Made by a program: the position numbers and the translations under genes | The notes under the pieces: generated by a model | What the model saw: only the letters and a program-made list of their open reading frames with translations | Told to the model about the DNA's origin: nothing | The model's database searches: none | NCBI GenBank assembly: GCA_003662715.1 | Contig: QMYO01000107.1 | Span: 1-6,199 of the forward strand | Length of the DNA: 6,199 bases | Source of the DNA: Candidatus Bathyarchaeota archaeon | GTDB lineage: Archaea > Thermoproteota > Bathyarchaeia > Bathyarchaeales > Bathyarchaeaceae | Direction: 5' to 3' | Shown here: positions 1 through 6,199 of the stretch, piece after piece | Layout of the letters: every line of letters starts with the position of its first letter | Numbering within the stretch: the stretch's first letter is position 1

Positions 1-802
1 CTCCTACGTCTTTGAATTCTGCAAGTATTTTAGCTGCTTCAATCCTATGCTTAGCTGCTTCCGGGTGCGGCCTATACTTTGCGAACAGCGGTAGTTTACC
101 TTTAAACTTAATTGGCAGAACCCTTCTTAGGAAACCGAATTCTCCCTTGAGAAACTCAACTAGGGGGCCCCAGTGGGGTGGGTGTACGTCCCATAGGAAT
201 GAGAAGTAGTATGTTCCCTCCTCCGCAACCACTGTTGCTAGGTCTGTCATTCTCCTTTGGCCTATGGTGTCCCCGTAGTATGCTGCATCCAGGACCTCCG
301 GTAGGCTGGCATGCCATTTGCTTTTTACCATGGAGTGTGCTCTTTCCCAAAGCTGAATAACCACCTTGGCCGGTCCGCGGTCCTGCCATTCCCTTTTCTT
401 CTTTATCCAAACCTTATTCGCTAACTCGTCCCTTAGTCCTTCGGCCGTAGTGTTACCGATAATTCTTATGAATGGTTCCTTTAGGAAGAAAACGTTGGCA
501 TCGTGGACGACATCTCTAATGTACCTCATTAAAGTGCCTTTACCGGTCCGAGTATCTCCGATGAGAACTGCGAAAATAGTTGCCGGAGGCAACCTGTAGT
601 CGATCAGGTACATTTTGCTTGCAGCGTTTAAGAGTAAAGCACCTGCCACCTTAACTGCGAAAACATTGTTCCTAAACATGTCAGGTGACATTAGCTCAAC
701 ATATTTCAGCCAGTGATACATAAAACCCCCAGGTATGAAGGGTTCTAGGGTTAGTTGCGCAGATTTTAAATCCTTCTTCTCCCCCTTTCTCCTATGAGGC
801 AT
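1..802 (-). CDS. P-loop ATPase, possibly primase-helicase/DUF3987-like (3' end outside window)
   Basis: A single open frame of 267 codons runs off the left edge, so the C-terminus is missing. The ATG at 802 is preceded 8 nt upstream by GGAGGG (811-816), and an in-frame TAG lies 16 codons further upstream, so the start is well supported. A Walker A loop, GDTRTGKGT, is at residues 82-90 after a hydrophobic strand (IFAVLI). Later come a strand ending in an acidic residue (VVIQLWERAH, 147-156), a possible Walker B/E, and GFLRRVLPI (223-231), which recalls the arginine-bearing region of DUF3987/primase-helicase ATPases. The order (RLPP before the P-loop, a GNTTAEGL segment, late GFLRR) fits that group, but the family call is from memory of patterns. 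The role is inferred as a DNA-dependent motor in replication. It lies 45 nt after the AbrB-like gene and is probably co-transcribed with it. No break or intron is apparent in this frame. Confidence 0.8.
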   Translation of the reverse strand, partial: MPHRRKGEKKDLKSAQLTLEPFIPGGFMYHWLKYVELMSPDMFRNNVFAVKVAGALLLNAASKMYLIDYRLPPATIFAVLIGDTRTGKGTLMRYIRDVVHDANVFFLKEPFIRIIGNTTAEGLRDELANKVWIKKKREWQDRGPAKVVIQLWERAHSMVKSKWHASLPEVLDAAYYGDTIGQRRMTDLATVVAEEGTYYFSFLWDVHPPHWGPLVEFLKGEFGFLRRVLPIKFKGKLPLFAKYRPHPEAAKHRIEAAKILAEFKDVG

Positions 803-847
803 GTTTCTGACCCTCCGGATGATGTGGAGACCCCAAAATGAGCTCAG

Positions 848-979
848 CTATGATTGAACTTCCAGAACAACCTTGTAAGTCCTGGACTTGTCTATGAGAG
901 GCTTAAGCTCCTTAGGGATCTTTATAATGTAGCGGTTGTTAGACTTCCAAATCTTAGCCGTAAACACTATTCTATCCAT
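848..979 (-). CDS. Small AbrB/SpoVT-like DNA-binding protein (43 aa)
   Basis: The 43-residue product begins MDRIVFTAKIWKSNNRYIIK and continues IPKELKPLIDK, then a strand-rich tail (TYKVVLEVQS). The pattern AKxWKSNNxYxIxIPKEL resembles the swapped-hairpin AbrB/SpoVT fold common as tiny regulators in Crenarchaeota, which bind DNA as dimers; this is family resemblance, not proof. The frame is open to an ATG at 1030, but that ATG lies in a TATA-like element, so the internal ATG at 979 is preferred. GGGTG (989-993) sits 9 nt before it. The gene has its own probable promoter and precedes the P-loop ATPase gene by 45 nt, suggesting a two-gene unit in which it could be a regulator. It could instead be an unrelated small basic protein. 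Confidence 0.7.
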   Translation of the reverse strand: MDRIVFTAKIWKSNNRYIIKIPKELKPLIDKSRTYKVVLEVQS

Positions 980-1019
980 AATGGAAAACACCCAGTCACT
1001 ATAGGATACACTGCGGAAA

Positions 1020-1027
1020 TATATAAA
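1020..1027 (-). promoter_or_regulatory. TATA box for the AbrB-like/ATPase unit
   Basis: TTTATATA on the minus strand, centred about 44 nt before the ATG at 979. A transcription start about 26 nt downstream of the centre would be near 998, giving a leader of about 18 nt that carries GGGTG. A second A/T-rich stretch (ATTATATAGTATAATA, near 1055-1072) lies further upstream and could act instead. Confidence 0.5.
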
Positions 1028-1073
1028 CATATAGGCAGATGAACTGGCCAGAGCAGTATTATACTATATAATG

Positions 1074-2672
1074 TTATTTTAACAATATGTCTTTTATCTG
1101 CCATTTAGGTTCAGTACTATATATTTTCCTCCTCCTCATGGCGTGGTCTTCAAAATACCTGATGTGATCCCATACATCGATGACAATGCCGTACTTCTTG
1201 TTGGCCCACGGCCTAGTTATCCTACCAACCCTCTGCAGTGCTCTCGTACTTGACTTTCCCCCGCCAGCCAGGATTAAGGTCCGGAGGGCCGGGAGGTCCA
1301 ACCCTTCATGCGGGGGCCATGGAAGCCCTGTCCGCAAGGGTTGTACATATGATTCCATCTATTTTGGCCCCCCGGACCAGGTTAAATATCATTGCTCTTA
1401 TGTCTGGGTCTACTTGCCCGTAAAGGAACGCTACTTTCAATCCTAGCTTCCTGCATTCTTTCTCTATTAGTTCTCCATGCTTGATTTCCTTAACTAGGAT
1501 CATGAATGGTTTCGGAGACTTATATGCTATTCTTGCTATTAGCTGGTTTCTCACCGGATCCTGGAAAACAGCTTTCTTAACCTTATTAAATAACCATGGG
1601 CCTCCCCGTTTACCCTCGAAATCCTTGGCGTACTTGGGGAAGTAATGTGCGAAATAGATTTTGACAGGAACAAGATAGCCTTTCTCTATTAGTTCGCTAC
1701 TAAGAATCCTCCTTGGAACCATATCCCCATAGCATGCATAGATATCAAGGTGAGCCGGGAGCCTGGGAGCTAGGTCCCAGACTCCTCTCGGCCATCATCG
1801 CGCCAAGGTGTAGCTGAAAGTGCTAGTCTTAAAGCGTTAGGGTTGGCCATTGAAGTATACCATACTGTCCGTGCTGGTACATGTTGGCATTCATCCATTA
1901 TAACTAGGTCTGCTTTCCTATAGGTCTCATATAGCTTTAGCTTGTCTTCGACATCGGTTTCTTCGAGTAGATGCCTTACTTCCTCGTCAAGGCTCTCTTC
2001 AGGGTATTCGTATGCCTCATATGTTCTTATAGCCCGGTAAAGTGTTTGAACAGTACAGCACACTACGTTTCTATCTATTTGGAAGTAGTCTTTGTTGACT
2101 AGTCCCGCTTCTTCACCGTACTTCTTAAATCTCTGTTTTGCTTGAATCAGCAGGTCCGTGTTTAGTGATAGGAAAAATGTTTTACGCGGCTTAAGGACCT
2201 TATGTAGTGCTACAGCTACTTCAGTTTTGCCACTTCTGGCCTGCCCGGGGGTGTTTATAGGTAAACTTTCCCCCCTAGGCAGGTTTCCAGTGCATGCTTG
2301 GAGTGTTGCTGCTCCTTGGAATTCTAGTTGCTTAAGTATCGATATTAGTGCTTCAAGCTGGTATTTACGTAGAAACTTTGCCTCGTAAAGATCATAGTCT
2401 AACTCCCTATATTTAGCTTCAACACGCCCCATTTTCAGGTTTTCAGCTATCCTCTTAACCCTAACGGTTAGGCCTCTGAAGGTTGTGAAGCTTAGTCTTG
2501 AAGGGTTAAACCAGTACCGTCGTATCATAATGTACTCGTATGCTTTAATGTCAGGGTTCCACTTCTTAAGCTCATATGCGAAGTACTTATTCGAAAACAT
2601 CTTTAGCGCTTCATACTTGGCCAGGTCATCTAGGAAAACTGTAACATAGTTTCCGTGGAAAACTGCCTTCAC
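1074..2672 (-). CDS. XPB/Ssl2-like SF2 helicase interrupted by three BHB mRNA introns
   Basis: Proposed exons are 2672-2285, 2233-1787, 1751-1330 and 1307-1074: 1491 nt in total, 496 residues plus TAA. Unspliced, the gene is three pieces in different frames. Spliced, it is a complete SF2 helicase. RKYQLEA at 102-108 precedes motif I (CTGSGKT, 127-133). Motif II is DECQ (243-246), motif III LSATPWRDDG (268-277), motif V TTLADEGLDLP (415-425) and motif VI QRVGRITRP (444-452). This set resembles the XPB/Ssl2/COG1061 group of dsDNA translocases; the N-terminal 100 residues may be a DNA-recognition domain. The start is a GTG at 2672 overlapping the upstream stop as GTGA, with GGGTGG just before it, the same ribosome site and near-identical spacing as the upstream gene. 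An alternative GTG at 2681 has no good ribosome site. It is probably a replication or recombination helicase. A decayed pseudogene is the alternative, but three independent exact repairs argue strongly against it. Confidence 0.9.
1308..1329 (-). other. BHB mRNA intron 3 (22 nt) in helicase motif V
   Basis: This is the most canonical of the three. The outer helix is 8 bp, CAACCCTT (1343-1336) with AAGGGTTG (1306-1299). The central helix is GCGG (1335-1332) with CCGC (1313-1310). Bulges are ACA (1331-1329) and ATG (1309-1307). The inner helix is GGGC (1328-1325) with GCCC (1317-1314), closing a 7-nt loop. Cutting after the second bulge nucleotides joins GCGGAC to GAAGGG and gives TTLADEGLDLP, an exact SF2 motif V. 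Unspliced RNA hits a TGA at 1308-1306. At 22 nt it is very short for an intron. Confidence 0.92.
1752..1786 (-). other. BHB mRNA intron 2 (35 nt) after helicase motif III
   Basis: The central helix is GCCG (1792-1789) with CGGC (1757-1754). The 5' bulge is AGA (1788-1786) and the 3' bulge TCA (1753-1751). An 11-bp inner helix, GGAGTCTGGGA (1785-1775) with TCCCAGGCTCC (1768-1758), has one G-U wobble and closes a 6-nt loop. Cutting after the second nucleotide of each bulge joins CGAG to ACCTTGAT and gives SATPWRDDGRDLDIYACYGD, a smooth motif III continuation. Unspliced RNA meets an in-frame TAG at 1772-1770 inside the loop. The outer helix is weak. Confidence 0.9.
2234..2284 (-). other. BHB mRNA intron 1 (51 nt) in helicase motif I
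   Basis: The minus-strand RNA has a 4-bp central helix, CTGG (2290-2287) with CCAG (2239-2236). The 5' bulge is AAA (2286-2284) and the 3' bulge AAG (2235-2233). The inner helix is CCTGCC (2283-2278) with GGCAGG (2245-2240), extended after a small internal loop by GGGGG/CCCCC. Cutting after the second nucleotide of each bulge joins GGAA to GTGGC. This removes 17 in-frame residues that split the P-loop and restores CTGSGKT. The outer helix is weak (TGCA against TGGCA with one bulged G). The reading frame stays open if unspliced, so a frame check alone would miss this intron. Confidence 0.87.
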
Positions 2673-2893
2673 GTCTTCCACCCTGCTTTCTTAATGTATT
2701 TTTCGAAGCACATGAATGTTCTATGGTTCCAAACGGGTTCGTAAAGTCTGCACTCCCAAATTGACTTTGGAGCCTCGGAAGGTGACATTACTTCTCCTGT
2801 TCTATGGCATTTAATAACGTATCCGCTTCCTCCATGTTTCCTTATTACTTCGCAGAAGTAGCAACTGTAGCATAGTTTAGGTGTTTTAGGCAT
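2669..2893 (-). CDS. Cys-rich putative zinc-binding protein (74 aa)
   Basis: The ATG at 2893 follows GGGTGG (2903-2898) and a TATA box. The product has cysteines at 8, 11, 14, 29, 48 and 62, including CYSCYFC near the N-terminus and a KCHRTG segment. This suggests one or two metal sites, with zinc or an iron-sulfur cluster both possible. I do not recognise the family. It is the first gene of the leftward unit, and its TGA overlaps the helicase GTG start as GTGA, so the two are very probably translationally coupled. A role as helicase partner or DNA/RNA-binding factor is inference from position only. Confidence 0.75.
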   Translation of the reverse strand: MPKTPKLCYSCYFCEVIRKHGGSGYVIKCHRTGEVMSPSEAPKSIWECRLYEPVWNHRTFMCFEKYIKKAGWKT

Positions 2894-2927
2894 GTTTCCA
2901 CCCGAGTATAGTATATACAGTATATAA

Positions 2928-2935
2928 TATATAAA
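2928..2935 (-). promoter_or_regulatory. TATA box for the leftward zinc-protein/helicase unit
   Basis: TTTATATA on the minus strand, centred about 38 nt before the ATG at 2893. A start about 26 nt downstream would be near 2905, leaving a short leader that just includes the GGGTGG ribosome site. Confidence 0.6.
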
Positions 2936-2941
2936 GTATAG

Positions 2942-2980
2942 GGTAGAGAGTGCGGCAGAAAAAATATAAGGTAGAAAGTG
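2942..2980 (+). repeat. Direct repeat GGTAGAnAGTG in the divergent promoter region
   Basis: GGTAGAGAGTG at 2942-2952 and GGTAGAAAGTG at 2970-2980 match at 10 of 11 positions, 28 nt apart. Each follows a TATA-like stretch. They may be operator copies or the trace of a duplicated promoter; which is not decidable from sequence. Confidence 0.45.
2959..2970 (+). promoter_or_regulatory. TATA box for the rightward SSB/Cas4/RecA unit
   Basis: The A/T-rich element AAAAAATATAAG lies about 40 nt before the ATG at 3005. A start about 26 nt downstream, near 2991, would give a short leader with GGAGGT at 2995-3000. A second candidate, ATATATAAAG near 2928-2937, overlaps the TATA box of the opposite strand and would give a longer leader. 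The two divergent promoters share about 110 nt and could be controlled together. Confidence 0.55.
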
Positions 2981-3004
2981 TGTACCGGTTTCTCGGAGGT
3001 AACT

Positions 3005-3529
3005 ATGTCTGAGAAGGGAATGGAAAAGCTAATAAGAACACTAATGAGGTTCGGCATGTCCAGGGAGGATGCTGAAAAGTATGCTCAAAGATATTTTCAA
3101 GCTTTAAACGAGGCTCAAAGAGTTAGTAAGGATAAGCTCGAGGAAATTAAGAGGTTTGCCTTGAAAACCCTGCCTCACAGCGAGGACTTTAGGGTTAAGT
3201 ATGATAAGTACGATGTTATAATAGTTCAAGTTCCAGCAGTACCTCAAGTGAAAAGGACTTCAAGCGGAAACTACAAGATTGGCCTACTGTGGCCAGGCGC
3301 TAAGGGATCTATTGGGGGACCATGGATTTCAGCTTTCTTCTCAAGTAAAGAAGAAGCAGATAAAGTTGCTAGTAGGCCCGGTGACTTCTTCCTCTTGATT
3401 GGTAAGGTTAGGACCAGAGAGTATATGGGTGGGCCAACGTACAGTATTAACGTTGCCGGATTGATTGAGCTTGGTGAAGAAGAGGTTCCTGAAGAGGTTT
3501 TCGGTGAAGAAGGTTTTGCGGAGGAGTAG
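3005..3529 (+). CDS. SSB-like ssDNA-binding protein (OB-fold candidate, acidic tail)
   Basis: The 174-residue product starts at the ATG at 3005, 4 nt after a perfect GGAGGT; the in-frame ATG at 2978 lacks a ribosome site. An N-terminal helical part (1-55) is followed by a strand-rich region (about 68-156), including DFFLLIGKVRTREYMGGPTY and SINVAGLIEL, which looks like an OB-fold. The last 20 residues are strongly acidic (EEEVPEEVFGEE), as in many SSB-type proteins, where such tails recruit partners. The likely role is coating ssDNA during replication or recombination. It heads the rightward unit and ends 4 nt before the Cas4-like gene. The assignment rests on shape and context, not a diagnostic motif. 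Confidence 0.72.
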   Translation: MSEKGMEKLIRTLMRFGMSREDAEKYAQRYFQALNEAQRVSKDKLEEIKRFALKTLPHSEDFRVKYDKYDVIIVQVPAVPQVKRTSSGNYKIGLLWPGAKGSIGGPWISAFFSSKEEADKVASRPGDFFLLIGKVRTREYMGGPTYSINVAGLIELGEEEVPEEVFGEEGFAEE

Positions 3530-3533
3530 CTGA

Positions 3534-4178
3534 ATGGAAGCATCTATTGACGAGCTTAGGAGGAAGATTAGGCAAGCATTCATAATGTTCGATGTTAAGC
3601 CAAGGAACCCGTATGAAATCTATGTTACTGAAGCGGTCGGATGCCTTAGAAGAGCTTTTTTCAACATAAAGTTCAACGCCAACCCTGTTCTCGAATCAGC
3701 TGATGTAATAATGGGTAAGCTTGTGCATTTAGCGTTGCCTAAGGTTCTCAAGGACATTGTTAATGCGGAGTTCGAGGTTCCTCTTGGATACAATATTTCC
3801 GGCCCATGGGTTCTAAGTGGACGTGCAGACGCTATGGACGCTGACATGGTTTACGAGTTCAAGTTCTCTTCACCGTACAGCGATGCTAAGCCAATATATT
3901 TTATGCAGGCAAACGCCTACGCTGTCATGGCTGAGAGGCCGATGTTCGCCCTGGTTATTATCGATAAGAAGACCTTCGACGTGGACATTATGGTTTCCGA
4001 AGCGGATGTTAAAGGGTTTAACGCTGTTGTTGAAAGAGCTAAAACAATAATATCGTGTGTTGAGAGAAACGAGGTACCTCCCGGGCCCGACTATGATTGG
4101 CAATGTAAGAACTGCCCTTACGCATTAATTTGTGTGGAGGGTAAGAAATGGATAGGTCAGAAACCTCTAAAACCATAG
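3534..4178 (+). CDS. Cas4-like PD-(D/E)XK nuclease with [4Fe-4S] cysteines
   Basis: The 214-residue product has the Cas4/RecB-nuclease signature: a conserved His (MGKLVHLAL, H65), Asp (SGRADAMD, D99), the E-x-K pair (VYEFKFS, E108 and K110) and a downstream Gln (FMQANAY, Q125). One N-terminal cysteine (C37) and three C-terminal cysteines (C191, C194, C200 in QCKNCPYALIC) match the four iron-sulfur ligands of Cas4. The family cuts or resects DNA ends; in viruses and plasmids such proteins are thought to act in replication or recombination. No cas1 or cas2 is nearby, so CRISPR adaptation is not indicated. GAGGAG at 3521-3526 is the ribosome site, inside the SSB-like gene's end. The 3' end overlaps the membrane-protein gene by 31 nt. 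Confidence 0.88.
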   Translation: MEASIDELRRKIRQAFIMFDVKPRNPYEIYVTEAVGCLRRAFFNIKFNANPVLESADVIMGKLVHLALPKVLKDIVNAEFEVPLGYNISGPWVLSGRADAMDADMVYEFKFSSPYSDAKPIYFMQANAYAVMAERPMFALVIIDKKTFDVDIMVSEADVKGFNAVVERAKTIISCVERNEVPPGPDYDWQCKNCPYALICVEGKKWIGQKPLKP

Positions 4179-4354
4179 GGTGGCTGGTTTACTGGTTGGG
4201 TTTAACGTTGCTAGGTGTTTCTCTTTCAATCTACCTGCTACGTTCAGGTAATCCAGTTAAGGTGGGGCTAGGGTTTTTAACGATGATTTTAGTGGTTGCT
4301 TCAATGTCTTTCACTGCATACTTCCTTCATAAGCTTTTAAGGAGGGGGAAATAA
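4148..4354 (+). CDS. Small two-helix membrane protein (68 aa)
   Basis: The start ATG follows GGAGGG, 8 nt upstream inside the 3' end of the Cas4-like gene, in another frame. Two hydrophobic segments, about residues 10-32 (TIGWLVYWLGLTLLGVSLSI and onward) and 39-60 (VGLGFLTMILVVASMSFTAY and onward), are separated by a short polar turn (RSGNPVK). A basic tail (HKLLRRGK) suggests both ends face the cytoplasm. No family is recognised. It sits between nuclease and RecA-like genes, and its stop abuts the next ATG directly. A membrane anchor for the replication complex is possible but speculative. Confidence 0.75.
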   Translation: MDRSETSKTIGWLVYWLGLTLLGVSLSIYLLRSGNPVKVGLGFLTMILVVASMSFTAYFLHKLLRRGK

Positions 4355-5062
4355 ATGTCTGAAAAAACAATTGTTGAAATGGTTAAGGAGAAGGGGAAGG
4401 AAAGAGAGAAGAAGAGGATCAGCGAAATTGTTAGGAAAATACATGCGATTGTAGGATATGATACATTCCAGGTGTTTGGACCTACAGGTTCAGGGAAGAC
4501 GAGTTTTGCACTATGGTTGGCCCATGAGTTCGCAAATTCCGGACTTAAAGTATGGTATCTTGATACCGAAAGGAATCTAAGTAAGCCTCCGGAGCATGAG
4601 AACATAGAGTACATTTACACGCCAGTTTTCGACGAAATATACAACTACGTTAGGAACCTGCCTAAGGCGCATCTTTACATTATAGACTCTATCGGTATAC
4701 CTGTTTTAGCGGCCTATGCTGAGTCAACCATGTATGAGAAAGGCACTATGCTCCTGAAAATGGTTACCATGGCCAACTACTTGAAAATAGCAACATACAA
4801 GAACAAAGCTATGGCATTAATAACAAACCAGCCAGTAAGCCCCTATGGTAAAAAGGAAGTTACTGAGGAGGATCTAAGGCCTCTAGGTAGCAAGGCGCTG
4901 TTCTTAAGTAAGGAAATATGGAGAACATGGATTATTGAGACTAGTCCAAGCAGAACCATGTGCGAGATCAGAACATGGAGATCCAGGAGGTATGGTAGAG
5001 GAAAGAAGCTCTTCAGAATAGAAATAACAGACCATGGGGTTAAGGTAACTCCGCTAATATAG
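4355..5062 (+). CDS. RecA/RadA-like ATPase (RadB-type, 235 aa)
   Basis: A RecA-fold core is clear: Walker A GPTGSGKT (42-49), VWYLDTE (66-72) with E72 in the place of the catalytic glutamate, Walker B LYIID (107-111) and the ALITNQP segment (154-160) typical of RecA/RadA. GSKALFLSKEIWRT and the end RIEITDHGV match the C-terminal strands of RadA-type cores. A charged N-terminal 30 residues replaces the helix-hairpin-helix domain of full RadA, so it is closer in size to RadB or KaiC-like paralogues. Likely roles are strand exchange, or regulating recombination with the SSB-like and Cas4-like partners encoded just upstream. GGAGGGGG lies a few nt before the ATG, and the start abuts the upstream stop. 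Confidence 0.88.
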   Translation: MSEKTIVEMVKEKGKEREKKRISEIVRKIHAIVGYDTFQVFGPTGSGKTSFALWLAHEFANSGLKVWYLDTERNLSKPPEHENIEYIYTPVFDEIYNYVRNLPKAHLYIIDSIGIPVLAAYAESTMYEKGTMLLKMVTMANYLKIATYKNKAMALITNQPVSPYGKKEVTEEDLRPLGSKALFLSKEIWRTWIIETSPSRTMCEIRTWRSRRYGRGKKLFRIEITDHGVKVTPLI

Positions 5063-5075
5063 CTTTAAGTTCAAT

Positions 5076-5091
5076 CCTCTTTTTTCTATTT
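5076..5091 (+). terminator. T-rich terminator candidate after the RecA-like gene
   Basis: The pyrimidine run CCTCTTTTTTCTATTT begins 14 nt after the stop. Archaeal termination often uses such T-tracts without a hairpin. It separates the recombination unit from the next promoter. Confidence 0.5.
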
Positions 5092-5100
5092 CCCGGTAGG

Positions 5101-5108
5101 TTTAAATA
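5101..5108 (+). promoter_or_regulatory. TATA box for the right-hand small-gene unit
   Basis: TTTAAATA is centred about 55 nt before the ATG at 5160. Transcription would start near 5130 and give a leader of about 30 nt. It is flanked by TAGGT on the left and ACCTA on the right, a short inverted repeat that could bind a regulator. The next four genes follow with short gaps and lack clear promoters, suggesting one operon. Confidence 0.6.
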
Positions 5109-5159
5109 GGGGTTCTACCTAGGTTATACTTGAGAAAAACCTTCCCGGGGGTGAGATCC

Positions 5160-5405
5160 ATGTCCCAGGTTTCTGAAACTAAACTTGACATGAAAGAATT
5201 AATCGGTAAAGCTATTGTTAGAGCAACTTCACATCATTTCGTACATGTTAAGAACATTTTGGCGGTAAATGTTCTTAAATACAGCGATTGCATAACCGTT
5301 GAAATATATCTTAAAGGATCCCCAATATATGTGGGTGTTGATTTCGACAAGGATGGCAAAATTAAGAACTCATATGTAGGATGGATAAATTCAAAAGAAG
5401 CATAA
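5160..5405 (+). CDS. Hypothetical small protein (81 aa)
   Basis: The ATG at 5160 follows GGGGGTGA, a good ribosome site. The in-frame TTG at 5130 is at the expected transcription start and is rejected as the start. The product has an N-terminal helix (about 8-22) and then strands (ITVEIYL, PIYVGVDFD, YVGWI), suggesting a small alpha/beta or beta-sheet fold. I do not recognise it. It is the first gene of the right-hand operon. Confidence 0.65.
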   Translation: MSQVSETKLDMKELIGKAIVRATSHHFVHVKNILAVNVLKYSDCITVEIYLKGSPIYVGVDFDKDGKIKNSYVGWINSKEA

Positions 5406-5420
5406 TGGAGGTGTTGGGTT

Positions 5421-5582
5421 GTGAGGGTAAAATTAACTATTGAAATATGTTTTGAAGGGGAATACATAAACCCGGTTAAATTGTCTCGAGAAATCTACGA
5501 GAAACTTAGTGTTGATTTAGCGACATTTTTCAAGGATATTCCTGTAAAGAGGATAAAAAGCATTAAATGGGAGGTGGAGTAG
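5421..5582 (+). CDS. Hypothetical small protein, GTG start (53 aa)
   Basis: GTG at 5421 is preceded by GGAGGTG (5407-5413) with 7 nt spacing. The frame runs to TAG at 5580-5582, filling the gap between two other genes. The product starts as a strand (VRVKLTIEICFEG) followed by a helix (NPVKLSREIYEKL) and a basic end (PVKRIKSIKWEVE). No family is recognised. Support comes from the strong ribosome site and tight operon spacing; the stop is 1 nt before the next ATG. Confidence 0.65.
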   Translation: MRVKLTIEICFEGEYINPVKLSREIYEKLSVDLATFFKDIPVKRIKSIKWEVE

Positions 5583-5583
5583 G

Positions 5584-5907
5584 ATGAAGGGTAAGGCTCC
5601 TATTTCTGCTTTAGAGAAAGAATATGAGGAGGTTCTAGAGGAATATAAGCAACACATCATCAAATTCATTAGGAGAACATGGAAGATCAATAGAAAGCTG
5701 AGGAGGCTAATTAGAAGCACTGACTTCAGAAAGCAACCAGAGAAAATATGCGATGTTCTCGACAGGTTCTTCGCTGTTTTCGCAAAGCTAGGCGATGAAG
5801 TTGATGCTTTAATGGATGCTTGCAGGTACGGTGAATTCTACAAGGAAGACATACTAAACTTCCTACTACCCGACGAAGAAATAATAGAAGAAATAAAGAA
5901 AGCATAA
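5584..5907 (+). CDS. Hypothetical charged helical protein (107 aa)
   Basis: The ATG at 5584 follows GGAGGTGG within the end of the preceding gene. The product is almost entirely predicted helix and highly charged: LEKEYEEVLEEYKQHI (about 10-25), a basic stretch (RRTWKINRKLRRLIR, 30-44) and a C-terminal acidic helix (LPDEEIIEEIKKA). The heptad-like charge pattern suggests a coiled coil or helical bundle, perhaps binding nucleic acid through the basic stretch. The family is unknown. Confidence 0.7.
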   Translation: MKGKAPISALEKEYEEVLEEYKQHIIKFIRRTWKINRKLRRLIRSTDFRKQPEKICDVLDRFFAVFAKLGDEVDALMDACRYGEFYKEDILNFLLPDEEIIEEIKKA

Positions 5908-5921
5908 TGGAGGTGTAGGTA

Positions 5922-6122
5922 ATGGACTATTGTTCAAGGTGTAGGCAGAAGAGTGTTGAAAGAAGTGAGATAGTAATAGACGGTTATGTTAGCTACATGT
6001 ATAGGTGCACTATCTGCGGTTACACCTACTGGACATTACCAGTACCATTACTGGGGAAGAAGCTTAATAAGGAGGAGATAAGGCAAGTAATAAAGAAACT
6101 CATAAAAATGTTCGGTGATTAA
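5922..6122 (+). CDS. Zinc-ribbon protein (66 aa)
   Basis: Two CxxC pairs, CSRC (4-7) and CTIC followed by GYTYW (29-32 onward), are separated by strands. This is a classic zinc ribbon, often a DNA- or RNA-polymerase- or translation-associated module. A basic C-terminal helix (NKEEIRQVIKKLIKMF) follows. GGAGGTG lies about 6 nt before the ATG. The specific partner is unknown. Confidence 0.75.
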   Translation: MDYCSRCRQKSVERSEIVIDGYVSYMYRCTICGYTYWTLPVPLLGKKLNKEEIRQVIKKLIKMFGD

Positions 6123-6124
6123 CC

Positions 6125-6199
6125 ATGTATCCTCCTTTCTCCCATGAGGATGCGGTTCAGTTTCTTGAGGAGGCTAATGAGCTTAGGGAGGCTTTTAGC
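6125..6199 (+). CDS. Start of a hypothetical gene (partial, 25 codons)
   Basis: ATG at 6125 is preceded by GGTGAT at the end of the zinc-ribbon gene and opens a frame to the window's right edge (MYPPFSHEDAVQFLEEANEL then REAFS). The visible part is an acidic helix. It is too short to classify. Confidence 0.6.
   Translation, partial: MYPPFSHEDAVQFLEEANELREAFS

Follow-up and report, generated by a model that had tools for sequence, protein, structure and literature searches.

A helicase gene of a likely mobile archaeal element with three predicted bulge-helix-bulge introns

In this work we analyzed positions 1-6199 of the contig QMYO01000107.1 of a Candidatus Bathyarchaeota archaeon (43% GC; referred to below as the window), and in particular a gene for a superfamily 2 (SF2) helicase on its minus strand (2672-1074), which is split by inserts of 51, 35 and 22 nt. 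We interpret these inserts as three predicted introns of the bulge-helix-bulge (BHB) type in the helicase mRNA, likely removed, like the intron of the archaeal cbf5 gene, by the tRNA-splicing endonuclease and an RNA ligase of the host, and we estimate the probability of this interpretation at about 85%. It starts from what is observed directly: the position of the inserts, their base-pairing geometry, their absence from close relatives and the uninterrupted coding within each piece of the gene. We infer that the gene is transcribed, that the host tRNA-splicing endonuclease would cut both bulges of each predicted BHB in the mRNA, that the host RNA ligase would seal the exons, and that the helicase would be translated from the spliced message. 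BHB introns in this one helicase had been proposed in an original prediction made from the letters of the window, and the proposal is now supported by the geometry, by the position of the inserts relative to unbroken relatives and by a positive control with cbf5 genes.

Organization of the split helicase gene

All pieces and inserts of the gene are on the minus strand. Exon 1 (2285..2672) begins with a GTG start, codes for the N-terminal part of the helicase into Walker A and has no stop; over 129 aa it is 97% identical to the database protein P0022. Intron 1 (2234..2284, 51 nt) lies in frame inside Walker A. Exon 2 (1787..2233) continues helicase domain 1 after Walker A up to the SAT-PW-RDDG motif (Pfam ResIII, 6.3e-13), directly 3' of which intron 2 (1752..1786, 35 nt) is located. 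Exon 3 (1330..1751; PHROG DNA helicases) covers helicase domain 2 from its start to motif V, and intron 3 (1308..1329, 22 nt) is placed inside motif V (LAD^EGLD). Motifs V-VI, the C-terminus and the stop are supplied by exon 4 (1074..1307; PHROG 9690 DNA helicase, 3.9e-15). The lengths of the pieces add up to 388+447+422+234 = 1491 nt, that is 497 codons including the stop, and none of the four pieces has an inner stop, so that the 496-residue spliced frame given in the original prediction is arithmetically right. The GC content of the introns is 57-69%, versus 41-48% in the pieces. The frame breaks that had been reported were found at introns 2 and 3 but not at intron 1, which is in frame and has no stop. 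In the protein database the gene is represented by a 300-aa fragment, P0001, which starts in exon 1.

Base-pairing geometry of the inserts

Both strands of the window were scanned for BHB placements with a 4-bp central helix, 3-nt bulges on opposite strands and an inner stem of at least 3 bp, with the cut after the second bulge nucleotide and an insert of 15-60 nt. Intron 1 has the central helix CUGG:CCAG, the bulges AAA/AAG and the inner stem CCUGCC:GGCAGG; in intron 2 the central helix is GCCG:CGGC, the bulges are AGA/UCA and the inner stem has 11 bp; in intron 3 a central helix GCGG:CCGC with the bulges ACA/AUG is accompanied by an outer helix of 8 bp and an inner helix of 5 bp. All three inserts thus follow the central-helix, bulge and cut rule of cbf5-type BHB introns, and both the insert coordinates and the cut after the second bulge nucleotide, as originally predicted, proved correct. 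By pairing score, introns 3, 2 and 1 (45, 43 and 34, respectively) rank first to third among the 280,554 placements of the minus strand, where the fourth scores 28; they also top the 561,108 placements of both strands together, the maximum of the plus strand (280,554 placements) being 28. The best score in 60 dinucleotide shuffles of the helicase region was 33. RNA folding recovered the central helix and the inner stem in all three introns, with z values of -3.47, -2.51 and -3.61 for introns 1, 2 and 3, and equally good folding was seen in 0, 4 and 1 of 200 shuffles, respectively. In intron 2, two of the three bases of the 3' bulge are paired in the minimum-energy fold and left open in the centroid.

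Introns in the cbf5 mRNA of Crenarchaeota were reportedly described by Watanabe in 2002. As a positive control, 12 loci with a TruB/Cbf5 gene, taken from 12 Thermoproteota genomes, were examined with the identical BHB scanner. The best-scoring BHB was found at the place of the cbf5 intron in 4 of the 12 loci: L103 (36 nt, score 39), L109 (22 nt, score 35), L111 (32 nt, score 36) and L114 (25 nt, score 41). The control cuts fall between GHGGTL (or GHAGTL) and a PKVTGVLP-like stretch. As judged from the sequences, the predicted introns of the window are of the same make as the cbf5 introns.

Several of the geometric results weigh against our interpretation. In the remaining eight control loci the best BHB found by the strict scanner was located elsewhere. 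The outer helix has 2 bp in intron 1 and 1 bp in intron 2, compared with 8 bp in intron 3; according to PMC12397907, some archaeal endonucleases accept relaxed BHB forms. When placements were ranked by unweighted helix length, with inserts of up to 119 nt, intron 1 came fourth among the minus-strand sites, and the plus strand had some longer ones. In addition, a score of at least 34 was reached by 202 placements in 1,161,544 strand-bases of fetched archaeal loci (about 4 per million placements); this background was counted in 102 loci, with one below 1000 bases skipped and with overlapping placements counted apart, and by bases these loci are mostly rRNA surroundings, rich in natural stems. 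Since 202 placements reach 34 in these loci, a good BHB score alone is neither rare nor decisive. The decisive and rare point is that all three BHBs coincide with the breaks defined by homology.

Relatives of the helicase at the insert sites

In the first protein search the naturally open frame, with insert 1 left in, was used as the query, and 14 proteins were returned, one of them the window's own. P0002 (495 aa, unbroken) is 59, 78, 68 and 78% identical to pieces 1-4, respectively, and has nothing at the three insert sites. P0004, P0007 and P0020 are also unbroken, and the flanks of the inserts were matched without an insert by P0002, P0004, P0007 and P0012. P0006, from a metagenome-assembled archaeon named GB-1867-005, is 93, 94 and 97% identical over pieces 2-4 (93% over 136 aa in the case of exon 2) and lacks introns 2 and 3; its frame begins after Walker A and is thus uninformative on intron 1. 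Because such close kin is without them, these two predicted introns have been gained or lost recently. In one comparison of the relatives, none of the nine that spanned Walker A had an insert there. Five relatives from genome assemblies (42-48% identity) have a single open frame across the match; in four of them (L066, L067, L096 and L097) all four motifs were in one DNA frame, and in the fifth the pattern found three. The original prediction had named homologues that keep the inserted residues and the frame breaks as the observation that would tell against it; we found close relatives without the inserts, and where other relatives carry inserts at these motifs, their lengths and sequences are different.

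No intron-bearing relative was found in searches of 7, 40, 398 and 229 genomes. Matches were obtained in 5 of the 7 genomes at 1e-3 (cellular helicases by score), in none of the 40 at 1e-25, in 55 of the 398 at 1e-12 (3 genomes at 1e-50 or better) and in 5 of the 229 at 1e-23. Likewise, no relative was obtained by tblastn from IMG/VR, with helicase queries or with the neighboring Sak4-like protein as the query, or from a protein scan of genome_contigs.

A decaying pseudogene, with random indels and folds formed by chance, would agree with the frame being broken by two of the three inserts and with the fragmentary database entry P0001. We consider it very improbable, because the four pieces have no inner stops and share 93-97% identity with P0006 over the parts that P0006 spans, because other relatives carry inserts at the same motifs, and because the three best-scoring BHBs of the window are located on the three breaks. 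The last point also upholds the earlier argument that chance decay would not place BHB folds at all three sites, even though a good BHB by itself is not rare. That the RNA is left unspliced and the ribosome bypasses the gaps, as it does in gene 60 of phage T4, is harder still to credit: gaps of 22-51 nt with hairpins resemble bypassing elements, but take-off and landing codons match at none of the three sites, whereas the BHB geometry is present at each. It could also be argued that only introns 2 and 3 are spliced and that intron 1, being 51 nt long, in frame, free of stops and with an outer helix of 2 bp, is a peptide insert tolerated in the protein. This seems highly unlikely, as the 17 residues would be inside Walker A, where none of the nine relatives compared over the motif has an insert, and as the BHB of intron 1 is the third best of the window. 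Two further candidates were rejected: an intein, since the inserts have at most 17 codons and no in-frame Hint domain, and a group I intron, for which there was no Rfam match at the gathering threshold in the window.

Recurrent insertion sites in the helicase family

Of 8000 candidates scored in a profile search, 417 proteins passed 1e-15; 120 of these were listed, and insertion sites were read by a script in 27 proteins. Inserts or frame breaks recur at Walker A, DExH, SAT-PW and motif V, and close kin lack them. At motif I, P0022 carries an intein at the site of intron 1 (Intein_splicing PF14890, 5.2e-19), and P0011 starts with MVHN-SGKT, where we take MVHN to be a typical intein end. At motif II, P0010 departs from the family sequence directly after DE. 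At motif III, inserts of 10 and 11 residues are present within WRDD in P0003 and P0005, and P0021 has an insert of 11 residues within WRDD as well as one of 39 residues at, or at most one codon from, the place of intron 2 of the window. At motif V, the break follows LAD in the window, P0003 and P0022, and the departure follows LADE in P0005, P0008, P0017, P0021 and P0055. P0008 breaks at motif V and its kin P0020 does not; the two are 97-98% identical over two segments before the motif V site and 85% identical over the first.

The frame of P0021 (563 aa) is open throughout and contains three inserts that preserve it, one within WRDD, one near GRD and one after LADE. P0021 is a candidate for a second gene with three BHB introns, of which one fails the strict BHB test. 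In this protein-level test we asked if synonymous codons could form a BHB at an in-frame insert and compared the result with 2000 residue shuffles; as it takes the bases of a codon to be independent of one another, the test is a lenient one, and any single result is weak by itself. The observed value was reached by 1 of 2000 shuffles for motif V of P0021 and by 6 for its second site, by 38 for motif V of P0055, by 45 for P0005 and by 88 for P0003; for intron 1 of the window, used as a positive control, it was reached by 25. At the first site of P0021, one of the six in-frame inserts, no strict BHB could be formed under any synonymous coding, which speaks against the BHB assignment there.

In P0017 (778 aa, from a 2825-nt JGI contig), LADE is followed by IAVGG and then by a helix-turn-helix and a LAGLIDADG endonuclease, which extend to the end of the protein (LAGLIDADG_3 PF14528, 5.5e-12; Hom_end PF05204, 2.2e-8). 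The protein gene may thus carry a BHB intron that codes for an endonuclease. No intein splicing domain was listed for P0017 at E 0.01; the residue after the motif V site in relatives is Gly, and Gly could not act as the +1 residue of an intein. P0055 has in motif V an in-frame insert of 14 residues, IAVGG and nine more, after which the family sequence resumes, and in P0008 LADE is followed by IAAGG and a short tail. The best PDB match of the P0017 endonuclease is 2dch, a 'putative homing endonuclease' (2.4e-6), which we take to be an archaeal rRNA-intron enzyme. The endonuclease was matched in 4 of 300 genomes, and its best match (27%, 1.1e-11; L099, 1504-2037) lies inside a 16S rRNA gene, within a match to small subunit (SSU) rRNA that covers 2195 nt, compared with 1478 nt in the model; the genome concerned (G156, also the source of L012) is titled Pyrobaculum oguniense TE7.

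Some observations do not favor an rRNA-type intron in P0017. PF05204 is best known from inteins. No rRNA was found at the other three loci that match the endonuclease, leaving one of four in an rRNA locus, and among 418 candidates the endonuclease had no relative below 1e-8. Moreover, P0017 is known as a protein alone and shows neither a 3' end of its insert nor a BHB.

Identity also changes abruptly around the insertion sites. P0022 agrees with the window at 125 of 132 positions of piece 1, at 54 of the first 60 residues of piece 2 and at 44 of the remaining 88, then at 78 of the first 105 residues of piece 3 and at all of the last 35 before the intron-3 site; identity is thus 90-100% beside the two insertion sites and 50-74% in the stretch that separates these. 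For P0055 and P0015, identity rises from 73% before motif V to 99% after it, and for P0016 and P0015 it drops at Walker A, from 92% to 70%. Such changes resemble co-conversion of flanks by homing. Against this stands the possibility that the mosaics could result from chimeric assembly.

Possible origin of the introns

We lean slightly towards the view that the inserts are shrunken descendants of endonuclease-coding homing BHB introns of the rRNA type. Such introns probably arrive as mobile DNA, because relatives carry an intein and a likely endonuclease intron at the same motifs. They would enter the codons of the most conserved motifs of the helicase family and later lose the endonuclease; the inserts would persist because the helicase stays functional only as long as they continue to be removed. 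The family may well be a hot spot, with odds a little better than even, at which a full intron (P0017), mini-introns and inteins (P0022 and P0011) swap at the same catalytic codons. With about the same guarded confidence, mini-introns left by deletion could be recognized in the window, P0055, P0021 and P0003 and, from their tails, in P0005 and P0008.

Alternatively, the BHB introns may be real and have no homing ancestry, having come by some unspecified route as in cbf5, with the intein and the endonuclease as separate events. We regard this as a serious, if somewhat doubtful, option. It agrees with the lack of any homing endonuclease coding in the window inserts of 22-51 nt, which weighs against homing descent; conserved motifs may also draw all kinds of homing element independently, and P0017 is a protein-only record whose endonuclease has a single genome match in an rRNA locus. 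It does not, however, account well for the near-identical starts of P0055, P0008 and P0017 after LADE, or for the intein being at the very site of intron 1. Descent from homing introns is the reading suggested by these two points.

Comparison with known systems

As described by Yokobori 2009 (PMC2738675), the cbf5 introns are likewise BHB introns, of 16-44 bp compared with 22-51 nt in the window; they likewise interrupt a catalytic codon of a protein gene, and their presence varies among close relatives. Unlike cbf5, the window has three predicted introns in one gene of a virus-like element, at several motifs, and in relatives of the helicase these places are also taken by intein and endonuclease inserts. 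The virus studied by Peng et al. is said to be SIRV1. The putative introns of 12 bp in that archaeal virus genome (Peng et al., as cited in PMC2738675) likewise interrupt protein genes and are short, with splicing undemonstrated, and may be tolerated unspliced; they are shorter than the inserts of 22-51 nt in the window, with which they were compared by length and location. The endonuclease-coding BHB introns of archaeal rRNA carry a LAGLIDADG endonuclease, as P0017 does, but the helicase gene codes for a protein, the window copies are without the endonuclease, and identity is only 25-27%. Inteins of helicases (haloarchaeal MCM; PMC10643990) likewise use conserved helicase codons as homing sites, as seen in P0022, but they are removed from the protein and not from RNA and are far longer than the window inserts.

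According to PMC7714728 (2020), one BHB intron had been reported besides those of tRNA and rRNA, that of cbf5 mRNA, to which that paper adds one in a Haloferax 5' leader. Neither BHB introns in a viral helicase nor an endonuclease-coding BHB intron in a protein gene was found in the open-access literature, as searched largely by title and abstract opening. The helicase would extend the known cbf5 and Haloferax mRNA introns and the putative 12-bp viral introns. PMC2738675 treats as an open question how the tiny mRNA introns of archaea arose, considers that the cbf5 introns are possibly deletion derivatives of endonuclease introns, and asks for an intron with coding sequence as proof. If the homing origin is right, an insert of the P0017 type would be the missing link sought by Yokobori et al., a BHB intron that codes for an endonuclease and sits in a protein gene. 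With complete, reduced and intein versions at shared codons, the question of where these introns come from could be tested directly. Three such introns in one viral gene would also mean that archaeal viruses use host tRNA-splicing enzymes on their own messages, and that such viral genes sit in databases as fragments, P0001 being an example.

Neighboring genes and nature of the element

The gene set of the window is divergent. Besides the helicase, the minus strand codes for a P-loop protein (2-802) with a GDTRTGKGT stretch that could not be clearly assigned to a family (best Pfam E 0.089), and has open reading frames (ORFs) of 60 aa and of 74 aa, the latter Cys-rich. On the plus strand there are a 174-aa protein, a Cas4-like nuclease (3534-4178; Pfam Cas_Cas4, 2.3e-5; PHROG 1706, 6.2e-23), a Sak4-like ATPase (PHROG 124, 4.9e-7) and small ORFs. 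Among named phages, the Cas4-like protein matched solely 15 Sulfolobus virus records (spindle-shaped viruses and their kin), the Sak4-like ATPase matched Methanocaldococcus fervens tailed virus 1, and the helicase matched 18 lipothrix-type records at the protein level (about 25% identity) and none at the DNA level; the neighbors at 2-802 and 3005-3526 had no relative there. In a plasmid search, the 20 listed of 1026 records gave distant bacterial helicases. Because the Cas4-like, Sak4-like and helicase proteins have kin in archaeal viruses, the element is likely mobile, as had been claimed, and it is likely an archaeal virus or plasmid. We also noticed a perfect inverted repeat of 12 bp with a 7-nt loop (5248-5278) within the small ORF at 5130-5405.
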